Below are positions 8,601 to 35,424 of a stretch of 37,233 nt of DNA, piece after piece (the first letter of the stretch is position 1; the number at the start of each line of letters is the position of its first letter). Made by a program: the position numbers and the translations under genes. The notes below the pieces were generated by a model. That model was not told the DNA's origin, ran no database searches, and saw only the letters and a program-made list of their open reading frames with translations. The DNA comes from a virus: positions 1 to 37,233 of the IMG/VR virus record IMGVR_UViG_3300025840_000094, one strand, 5' to 3'.

Positions 8601-8608
8601 TATTTATC
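8601..8608 (-). promoter_or_regulatory. Late-promoter-like GATAAATA upstream of the 2023-residue fibre
   Basis: Minus-strand GATAAATA lies 32 bases upstream of the fibre ATG at 8568, a suitable distance for a late promoter with a leader of about 25 nt. It overlaps the TGA stop (8607-8609) of the preceding small gene. Known family: T4-like phages use TATAAATA recognised by the gp55 sigma factor with gp33 and the clamp. Confidence 0.5.
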
Positions 8609-8915
8609 AAGTCAAATCCTCCTCATCAAAATAGCAATATTCGTCATCTGGCATGTCTTCCGGATTTTCTAAATCAACAGGGAATAGGCAAGGATGTACT
8701 TCTTCATCTATCAAGTAGAAAGAACTCCTGTATAAGTCTTCTGGTTCATAACTTATATGTTTATTTGCTTCTTCTACTAAATCTTTATCACACAAATGTC
8801 CCTCAGGAAGTTCATCAAATGTAAATGGAATTTGATTTATAAAATACATCTTCACTATCATGGTACCGTTAAGATACCAACAATATTCGCTGGTGATTCT
8901 GTATTTAAAGGACAT
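8607..8915 (-). CDS. Hypothetical acidic protein, 102 residues
   Basis: The product is not recognised. It is acidic, notably at the C-terminus (PEDMPDDEYCYFDEEDLT), and contains aromatic-rich segments (EYCWYLNG, KMYFIN) and three Cys. The ATG at 8915 follows a good ribosome site (AAAGGA, about 8 bases upstream). It is the last gene of the small accessory cassette between the fibre genes, after the tRNA. Its small size, acidity and host-like promoters upstream suggest an early accessory protein rather than a virion part (inference). Confidence 0.7.
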   Translation of the reverse strand: MSFKYRITSEYCWYLNGTMIVKMYFINQIPFTFDELPEGHLCDKDLVEEANKHISYEPEDLYRSSFYLIDEEVHPCLFPVDLENPEDMPDDEYCYFDEEDLT

Positions 8916-8942: not shown

Positions 8943-9014
8943 TAGGACTGCGGAGAATTGAACTCCGTTCACACCGTTATAAGCAGTGGGCCTTAACCAA
9001 TAGGCGACAGTCCC
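8943..9014 (-). tRNA. tRNA-Ile(UAU)
   Basis: A full cloverleaf folds on the minus strand. The acceptor is GGGACTG/CAGTCCT (one G-U at 1-72) with A73; the D stem is GCCT/AGGC with loop ATTGGTTA; the anticodon stem is CACTG/CGGTG (one U-G) with loop CTTATAA. The T stem is CGGAG/CTCCG with loop TTCAATT, and the variable loop is TGAA. The loop places U at 33, anticodon UAU at 34-36 and A at 37, so it would read AUA (Ile). No CCA is encoded. Most bacteria read AUA with a lysidine-modified CAU tRNA, so this gene would directly serve the AT-rich codon use of the phage. Confidence 0.88.
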
Positions 9015-9015
9015 T

Positions 9016-9038
9016 AAAAATCAGATCCATAGATCTGA
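9016..9038 (-). terminator. Hairpin with U-tract between the Phd-like gene and the tRNA
   Basis: On the minus strand, TCAGATC-TATG-GATCTGA forms a perfect 7-bp stem followed by TTTTT, one base before the tRNA 5' end. It looks like a weak rho-independent terminator for the Phd-like gene. Because the predicted start of the adjacent promoter (9043-9071) falls inside its 5' arm, it could instead act as a leader or processing hairpin for the tRNA transcript. Confidence 0.55.
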
Positions 9039-9042
9039 AATA

Positions 9043-9071
9043 ATTTTAGCACGCTTCGTTGTTATTGTCAA
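9043..9071 (-). promoter_or_regulatory. Sigma70-type promoter for the tRNA and 102-residue gene
   Basis: On the minus strand TTGACA (9066-9071), 17 bases, then TAAAAT (9043-9048). The -10 overlaps the TAA stop of the Phd-like gene. Expected start is near 9036, about 20 bases before the tRNA. The perfect -35, ideal spacer and good -10 make it one of the strongest host-type promoters in the window. Confidence 0.65.
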
Positions 9072-9219
9072 CGTACAATTTGTATATTTCGCCGTCTGCA
9101 GGAATCATGACAGATGCAGTTCCATCATCTTTCACAATGCCAATGTGTTCTCCATTCTCCACTCGTTCAAGAAGTTCATCAAAATTTTCTTCCCATTCCT
9201 TCAAGGTGTAAATCTCCAT
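9046..9219 (-). CDS. Phd/YefM-like antitoxin-type protein (orphan)
   Basis: This 57-residue protein resembles the N-terminal DNA-binding half of Phd/YefM antitoxins: a short first strand (MEIYTLKEW), a helix (ENFDELLERVENGE) and strands HIGIVKDD and ASVMIP. In the family this half dimerises and binds operator DNA, while a C-terminal tail neutralises the toxin. Here only about 20 residues follow, and no toxin gene is adjacent. The start at 9219 is preferred over an in-frame ATG at 9252: it lies 2 bases after the stop of the upstream gene, and the family begins at this point. Could be an autoregulator, an anti-toxin against host systems, or a remnant. Confidence 0.6.
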   Translation of the reverse strand: MEIYTLKEWEENFDELLERVENGEHIGIVKDDGTASVMIPADGEIYKLYVDNNNEAC

Positions 9220-9221
9220 AA

Positions 9222-9416
9222 TTAGATCAGTGGATTGGTATAAGCAAGGCAATCACTATCATCATCAAGAAAGTGACGGACAACCTCCAAAACATCCATG
9301 AATTGTTCGACATCATCACATTCAATGGTTTTTTCATTACCTTCACTAGAATAAAGATAAAACTTTCTCGCCATTGGATCGACAACACAGCGAGTTAGAT
9401 AATCCTGTTCAATCAT
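9222..9416 (-). CDS. Hypothetical acidic protein, 64 residues
   Basis: This small acidic protein is not recognised. It has a beta-rich start (YLTRCVVDPMARKFYLYSSEG) and a helix (DVEQFMDVLEVVRHFLDD). It is the first gene after the promoter at 9440-9468 and is separated from the Phd-like gene by 2 bases, so the two are probably co-translated. It shows no catalytic residues or fold expected of a Doc or RelE toxin, so it is unlikely to be the missing toxin partner. Confidence 0.65.
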   Translation of the reverse strand: MIEQDYLTRCVVDPMARKFYLYSSEGNEKTIECDDVEQFMDVLEVVRHFLDDDSDCLAYTNPLI

Positions 9417-9439: not shown

Positions 9440-9468
9440 ATGATAGCACACATCTGATTGGGTGTCAA
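9440..9468 (-). promoter_or_regulatory. Sigma70-type promoter of the accessory cassette
   Basis: Minus strand TTGACA (9463-9468), 17 bases, TATCAT (9440-9445). It overlaps the stop of the beta-propeller gene and lies just upstream of the 64-residue gene (ATG 9416). A host-type early promoter in the middle of late structural genes implies the cassette is expressed on its own schedule. Confidence 0.65.
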
Positions 9469-35386: not shown

Positions 35387-35415
35387 ATTTTACACAAAAA
35401 AAGAGGGTTCGTCAA
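35387..35415 (-). promoter_or_regulatory. Sigma70-type promoter of the thyX-phoH-gp59 operon
   Basis: Minus strand TTGACG (35410-35415), 17 bases, TAAAAT (35387-35392). The -35 is the loop and first 3'-arm base of the upstream terminator hairpin, and the spacer contains the rest of the arm and the U-tract, so terminator and promoter are interlocked. Confidence 0.65.
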
Positions 35416-35424
35416 GAACCCTCT
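35396..35424 (-). terminator. Rho-independent terminator
   Basis: On the minus strand AGAGGGTTC-TTGAC-GAACCCTCT forms a perfect 9-bp stem followed directly by at least six T. It ends the small transcript of the 59-, 48- and 29-residue genes. Confidence 0.85.

Follow-up and report, generated by a model that had tools for sequence, protein, structure and literature searches.

The window analysed here is the whole stretch of a virus record and consists of 37,233 bases with a G+C content of 35.7%. A tRNA-Ile(UAU) gene is located at 8943–9014 on the minus strand. The anticodon is at 8979–8981, A73 is at 8943, the end pair is G1–U72, and CCA is not encoded. The gene directly upstream on the same strand (9046–9219) encodes a Phd/YefM-like antitoxin of 57 residues and is called phd below. 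Its upstream-extended frame (9046–9252) matches phrog_375 with an E value of 1.3e-11, and the score against Pfam PF02604 is 19.3 bits, below the cut-off of 29.8. The next gene downstream (8607–8915, minus strand) lies 27 nt past the tRNA and encodes a 102-residue phrog_4134 protein.

A sigma-70-type promoter match (11 of 12 positions) is present before the tRNA at 9071–9043 on the minus strand. TTGACA (9071–9066) and TAAAAT (9048–9043) are separated by 17 nt, within the 16–18 nt usual for the two hexamers. The −35 box sits in the 3′ coding end of phd, and the −10 box overlaps the phd stop codon. According to the usual spacing of 7 nt past the −10 box, transcription is predicted to start at A9036. 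The leader hairpin element (9038–9015, minus strand) consists of TCAGATC-TATG-GATCTGA (9038–9021), U5 (9020–9016) and A9015. The stem has seven perfect base pairs, three of them G–C (−8.2 kcal/mol, z −3.5). It begins 4 nt behind the −10 box and spans the predicted start. An earlier note on this DNA had described a hairpin of seven perfect pairs plus U5, whose end lies one base short of the tRNA, and a predicted start inside that hairpin. Both are seen: the hairpin and U5 occupy 9038–9016, the single intervening base is A, and A9036 is in the left arm. The predicted promoter-started transcript would retain five of the seven stem pairs (AGAUC/GAUCU).

Several T4-like families are encoded in the window (baseplate hub, tail tube, head closure, single-strand binding protein and PhoH). 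Among the best 12 of 2,417 matching records, the single-strand binding protein is closest to those of the cyanophages S-SKS1 (75.2%), S-SRM01 (72.9%) and P-SSM5 (72.1%), and the window was therefore taken as cyanophage DNA. At the DNA level, the matches of named phages (nine records) are almost all confined to the tRNA. The window is most likely a fragment of a T4-like phage, a cyanophage.

The tRNA at 8943–9014 is certainly a real tRNA by its fold and anticodon. ARAGORN and Rfam agree on the gene (minus strand, 9014–8943), and ARAGORN finds no further tRNA in the window. The match to Rfam RF00005 scores 55.5 bits against a gathering score of 29 (E 1.8e-9). The score against our covariance model R1 is 99.4 bits, the window itself being one of the 12 rows of the model. 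The underlying alignment combines the window with 11 relatives, all of them 72-nt genes and selected to be diverse. In these 12 sequences the 21 pairs of the cloverleaf hold in 252 of 252 cells, and 14 of the 21 pairs are changed on both sides. ARAGORN, the Rfam score and the paired cells give no sign of a pseudogene and confirm the assignment of UAU as the anticodon. The earlier note had called this anticodon rare in bacteria, and statements in PMC11938285 bear this out.

Within the window alone, the counts of promoter matches are close to expectation. Over the whole window and both strands, three matches of at least 11/12 are found against about 2.5 in shuffled sequences, and in a 2.3-kb region 17 matches at 9/12 are found against 12.1 (s.d. 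2.9). As calculated from the shuffle rate, about 0.002 matches of at least 11/12 are expected within 60 nt before the tRNA. One further match (TTGACA-17-TATCAT, 11/12) is located at 9440–9468 on the minus strand before a small gene at 9222–9416. A loose hairpin scan gives two hits (0.8 in shuffles), both being the same hairpin seen on opposite strands. A strict scan, defined by seven perfect pairs followed by TTTT, gives three rows on the minus strand, which correspond to two distinct hairpins (two rows are registers of one hairpin), against 0.05 in shuffles; on the plus strand it gives none against 0.25. Both distinct strict elements overlap promoter boxes. One is the hairpin before the tRNA, and the other is a second composite at 35387–35423 on the minus strand. 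In the latter, the hairpin GAGGGTTC-TTGAC-GAACCCTC (35423–35403) is followed by T7, TTGACG extends across the loop, and TAAAAT follows 17 nt later (10/12).

As the promoter evidence from the window alone is weak, relatives were examined. From 213 sources, 193 UAU tRNAs (97 distinct trimmed sequences) were collected, and 158 of them have 100 nt of upstream sequence and a distinct last 60 nt. Promoter matches of at least 11/12 are present in 27 of these 158 upstream regions, against a shuffle mean of 0.20 and a maximum of 2 in 20 rounds. Perfect matches are present in 11 of the 158, against 0.05. According to gapped comparison, the 27 regions form nine groups at a local score of 20 or ten groups at a score of 24, and the largest contains 13 of the 27. 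An initial count of twenty independent clusters was discarded, as that clustering was ungapped. In the other 131 upstream regions no match of at least 11/12 is found. The same test was applied to other phage tRNAs and gives 34/54 for Pro, 18/74 for Leu-UAA, 14/49 for Arg-UCU, 8/42 for Ser-UGA, 3/55 for Val, 1/48 for Asn and 0/115 for CAU. Many cyanophage tRNAs thus seem to have their own promoters, as far as promoter matches can indicate. The excess in relatives is stronger promoter evidence than the counts within the window. It also supports the earlier note, which had assigned the tRNA its own promoter.

The regions before the UAU tRNAs take several forms. In 36 of the 57 distinct phd relatives printed, the tRNA starts 5–15 nt past the phd stop codon and no element stands between them. 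In L161, L164, L207 and L016, a hairpin with a T tract lies over the phd stop codon and no promoter match of at least 9/12 is present; L435, L437 and L438 resemble this type by reading. A hairpin followed by T residues is present in the last 80 nt of 19 of the 158 upstream regions. In L006, L009, L010 and others, a strong upstream terminator is followed by a −10-like box, again by reading. In a further form the −35 arm pairs with the −10/+1 arm. This form is typical before tRNA-Leu-UAA and tRNA-Gly-UCC, where z falls below −2 in 18 of 18 and 14 of 17 cases, respectively. A z below −2 is reached by only five of the 27 promoters before UAU tRNAs, so promoters of UAU tRNAs do not as a rule lie in hairpins. 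The form of the window, with the predicted start in the left arm, occurs in the window and one other contig only. As this is no independent relative, covariation is not available for the promoter-hairpin of the window, and conservation of its promoter at a homologous place was rejected.

Some of these forms bear on an alternative in which the tRNA has no dedicated transcription. The tRNA would be cut from phd read-through RNA by RNase P, the hairpin with U5 would then protect the 3′ end that remains on the phd mRNA, and the promoter match would be a by-product of the coding end of phd. A tRNA 5–15 nt behind phd is too near for an intervening promoter, the hairpin with a T tract exists in L161, L164, L207 and L016 where the promoter match is absent, and the −35 box of the window is itself coding sequence. 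However, the strong promoter matches recur before UAU tRNAs in nine to ten groups, and between the window and L368, two sequences compared by eye, the first base of the −35 box and the −10 region differ. We regard exclusive read-through as rather unlikely.

The place behind phd is a recurrent slot for UAU tRNAs. The first tRNA within 400 nt of 80 phd relatives is UAU in 62 cases and CAU in seven, and in 11 cases none is found; some of the UAU misses hold, by reading, a long UAU tRNA skipped by ARAGORN or a piece of one. Eighty phrog_4134 loci were fetched, and 25 of the 30 scanned have a UAU tRNA. A search pattern that left position 34 free and fixed the rest of the anticodon loop gave U at this position in 120 of 120 among the matches listed. 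The bodies of the tRNAs differ: the window's GGGACTGTCGCC type, a GGGAGTATAGCTT type and an 88-nt type with a long variable arm all stand behind phd with the UAU anticodon kept. The long-arm type is found at L140:2235–2322, L115:1567–1654, L204:1662–1749, L499:1209–1299 and L500:1197–1286. It is 88 nt long in the aligned set, with a D loop of 4 nt and A at position 8. The set contains 15 distinct sequences, whose shared variable-arm loop CAGATTA was demanded by the filter (S-SKS1 has CCGATTA). Pairing in this set reaches 99.5% of 375 cells, with changes on both sides in 82 of the cells. G1–U72 is the usual end pair of both types, an unusual shared mark present in nine of the 12 sequences of the window-type alignment and in 15 of the 15 of the long-arm type.

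The long-arm tRNA is present at the slot in S-SKS1 and S-SRM01, where it is unannotated. Against the window-type model, these two phages reach at best only 50.6 and 45.6 bits and thus apparently lack the window-type tRNA. Since both are closest to the window by the single-strand binding protein among the best 12 of 2,417 records and yet have the long-arm type, close relatives differ in the body of the slot tRNA. A companion CAU tRNA (L135:2313–2388, L187:755–829 and L153:2072–2145) is called tRNA-Met by ARAGORN and by annotators. It is nearer to the CAU tRNA L365 of Synechococcus RCC307 (0.75–0.81) than to L344, for which the values listed do not exceed 0.69. L365 looks like a tRNA-Ile2, and the companion tRNA may therefore be a second AUA reader.

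The earlier note had suggested that AUA codons be counted in phage and host. On the phage side, AUA accounts for 222 of the 782 Ile codons (28.4%; 19.8 per thousand codons) in 28 selected ORFs of the window. The distribution is uneven, with only seven AUA codons in total across seven counted ORFs from 30528 on. The host side is given by published numbers for CB0101: AUA occurs at 16.6 per thousand in the phage S-CREM1 and 2.5 per thousand in its host CB0101, as given in PMC9964418. According to a sentence in the same paper, TAT is apparently the one S-CREM1 tRNA type that CB0101 lacks.

The tRNA genes found in RCC307 number 42 and include Ile-GAU and three CAU tRNAs but none with UAU; the tRNAs may be undercounted, because one of the 42 was missed by the Rfam scan. 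In 61 genomes of the family of RCC307, none of the matches listed to the UAU model under strict filters exceeds 58.3 bits. Thirty of these host matches were fetched; 26 are Ile-GAU and four are Gly-UCC. Nine phage UAU tRNAs of the window type score 64.7–99.4 on the same model, 99.4 being the window, a row of the model. Thus, no host source of the tRNA appears among the matches listed for the 61 genomes. A dissimilar host UAU tRNA may exist, as the filters were strict and the model is blind to the long-arm type (it gives no match at L140:2235–2322). A search for the TTATAA loop gave five matches, all in the AT-rich genome G005, against 14 for the reversed control, and the three that were fetched contain no tRNA.

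The tRNA likely adds to the capacity for reading AUA, which is frequent in the AT-rich phage and little used by at least one host with published counts. Points against the supply of AUA decoding are the uneven distribution of AUA in the window and the ability of hosts to read AUA through TilS. TilS is encoded in six of six picocyanobacterial genomes, picked from 80 psbA loci. Alternatively, the tRNA may be a decoy or replacement against host defences that cut tRNAs rather than a codon supplement. According to statements in PMC10264068 and PMC11555353, phage tRNAs can evade such defences. However, the anticodon is kept while the bodies in the slot differ, which points to decoding, and the tRNA genes found in RCC307 include no UAU tRNA to be replaced. 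We consider the decoy improbable.

A more regular composite is found before other UAU tRNAs. This cassette is about 40 nt long (consensus TTGACAAAGAGTTCCAGATCCTCTATAATTGATCTGGTTTT) and has its −10 box in the loop of the hairpin. Among 25 matches to a regular expression, three were dropped for absence of a UAU loop downstream, and the remaining 22 are distinct variants before UAU tRNAs. For a near-exact form of the cassette, the anticodon loop TTATAA is located within 60 nt downstream in 23 of 23 contigs. The cassette stands before several different UAU tRNA bodies. The arms are paired in 96.1% of cells in the 22 variants, against 7–46% when slid. One G–C pair is replaced by A–U in five sequences, and another pair is G–U in eight. 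None of 500 shuffles reaches the score or the number of cells with double-sided changes, whereas two of the five measures stay at shuffle level: the double-sided pairs are reached by 382 of 500 shuffles and the further pair types by 500 of 500. The covariation depends on a single pair, and a slide of +1 also gives five cells changed on both sides. For comparison, a family of tRNA-Leu spacers was rejected as proof of covariation, since its pairing is 89.3% and its covariation is reached by 57 of 500 shuffles.

As the −10 box is in the hairpin loop and the left arm is upstream of the expected start, only RNA derived from upstream would hold both arms of the cassette. The relatives thus lend support to the notion that, in general, read-through and promoter-started RNAs would fold differently. 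The earlier note had proposed that the hairpin may work as a terminator for the upstream gene but not for tRNA transcripts. This fits the related cassette, but it is too strong for the window, whose predicted transcript keeps most of the stem.

Folding of promoters was also compared more generally. Promoter matches with z of −3 or lower make up 31 of 124 before tRNAs and 38 of 327 elsewhere, against 15 of 450 random 49-mers. The proposal that phage promoters are generally hairpins was rejected; such folds are enriched, most before tRNAs, and are not general. Several of the folds elsewhere (for example L138, L166 and L210) resemble the tRNA-Leu spacers and may precede tRNAs missed by ARAGORN. 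Pairs from the −35 zone to the −10 box or beyond number 70 before tRNAs against 40.2 in shuffles (maximum 53), and elsewhere they are not above shuffles (88 against 93.7). Pairs that span the −10 box are not above fixed-hexamer shuffles, either before tRNAs (60 against 48.2, maximum 63) or elsewhere (109 against 98.5, maximum 121). A double palindrome, TTGAC..GTCAA and then CCCTTATAATACTAAGGTCAA, carries a full promoter match at L018:1151, L019:1593, L064:9993 and L102:2670 (plus strand, 0-based). Fifteen cases of this recurrent double palindrome have z of −3 or lower, and ARAGORN finds no tRNA within 60 nt downstream of any of them.

Phd/YefM proteins bind palindromes and repress their own operons. 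The palindrome before the tRNA could accordingly be a DNA operator through which a dimer, the Phd-like protein or some other, keeps the tRNA promoter repressed; this would fit the phd-like gene immediately upstream and the position of the palindrome over the predicted start. However, the arms are spaced by N4 in the window and by N10 in the cassette, the arms change with pairing kept in five of the 22 cassette variants, a U tract follows the hairpin of the window, and the PF02604 match is below the cut-off. We consider such an operator quite improbable. It is also quite improbable that promoter match and hairpin stand beside the tRNA by coincidence, a reading favoured by the near-chance promoter and loose-hairpin counts of the window but opposed by the position adjoining the tRNA, the excess of strict hairpins and the promoter excess in relatives.

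We therefore favour, as somewhat probable, a functional tRNA that supplements AUA reading in a recurrent phd/phrog_4134 slot, under a composite promoter-hairpin element. The weight of this explanation was lowered, and that of read-through and of chance raised, by the reduced number of promoter groups and by the five of 27 folds. In the many relatives with the tRNA close behind phd, the tRNA is probably produced by read-through. In the lineage of the window, a promoter of host type would lie across the 3′ end of phd, with the hairpin and U5 between the phd stop codon and the tRNA. A polymerase that enters from phd would transcribe the entire hairpin and U5, a weak terminator-like structure that may halt some transcripts. 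Alternatively, once RNase P has cut at the tRNA, the whole hairpin may shield the 3′ end left on the phd mRNA. A transcript begun near A9036, inside the left arm, would retain a 5-bp hairpin at its 5′ end and continue into the tRNA, which would be charged by the host IleRS and improve AUA decoding. The gene is ordinary, and the control element is unusual.

A broader reading can be offered tentatively, at less than even confidence. In the slot behind phd the UAU anticodon would be selected while the body is exchanged, including the unannotated tRNASec-like long-arm tRNA. Expression would be set by interchangeable overlapping promoter and hairpin elements, with read-through RNA folding differently from promoter-started RNA. 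Should the long-arm body be charged with an amino acid different from isoleucine, the reading of AUA would become ambiguous in infected cells. There is still debate over the purpose of phage tRNAs. A slot with a fixed anticodon and an exchanged body allows decoding to be told apart from other roles, and isolates offer a way to test this. Hairpin-folded promoters before tRNAs would compactly uncouple neighbouring genes in crowded phage genomes.

The tRNA type of the window is already known and is mostly annotated in named phages. The T4-like cyanophages S-PM2, S-TIM54, S-SM2, DSL-LC03 and others have the same tRNA, with 83–95% identity in the matched part and the anticodon TAT, and the anticodon is UAU in all 12 named-phage loci fetched (12 of 27 matching records). 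The gene directly upstream is annotated as Phd-like, Phd-AT or prevent-host-death in five of these 12 loci, like the gene in the window. Cyanophages often carry CAU and Leu tRNAs after the UAU tRNA, whereas the window has neither and has the promoter-hairpin in front. A tRNA-Ile(UAU) that reads AUA is also reported to occur in a bacterium, Mycoplasma mobile, where it is said to be the cell's own AUA system. The lysidine-type bacterial tRNA-Ile2 likewise reads AUA according to statements in PMC11938285. It has a CAU anticodon, modified to lysidine by TilS, whereas the window tRNA has UAU instead of the CAU that marks tRNA-Ile2 and has no need for lysidine.

The long-arm UAU tRNAs of relatives share the long variable arm with allo-tRNAs and tRNASec-like tRNAs. 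UAU is a predominant anticodon of the 8/4 allo-tRNAs, as described in a statement of PMC7609411, and the long-arm type has the same anticodon. The best Rfam family at the two loci tested is tRNA-Sec (RF01852), with 36.5 and 30.8 bits, below the gathering score of 47. A 7-bp acceptor stem and a 5-bp T stem fit the set, in place of the 8/4 or 9/3 branch of allo-tRNAs. Because of this 7/5 arrangement with A73, the long-arm tRNAs were not filed as allo-tRNAs.

Composites of promoter and stem-loop are known in T4-like phages as promoter-early stem-loops (PeSLs), and their link with cyanophage tRNA genes was not seen in print. A literature search for promoter-hairpins before cyanophage tRNAs, judged by titles and the beginnings of abstracts, found none. 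According to statements in PMC4503421, PeSLs are sparse in S-PM2, and they are not tied to tRNAs there, whereas the cassette described here precedes different tRNAs. PeSLs serve as exchange points for cassettes, and the position of the related cassette before several UAU tRNA bodies may hint at such a role; nothing of the kind was seen for the window's own element. By the definition taken from PMC4503421, a promoter and a stem-loop are combined in one small intergenic element, and the window contains such an element at 9071–9016 and another at 35423.
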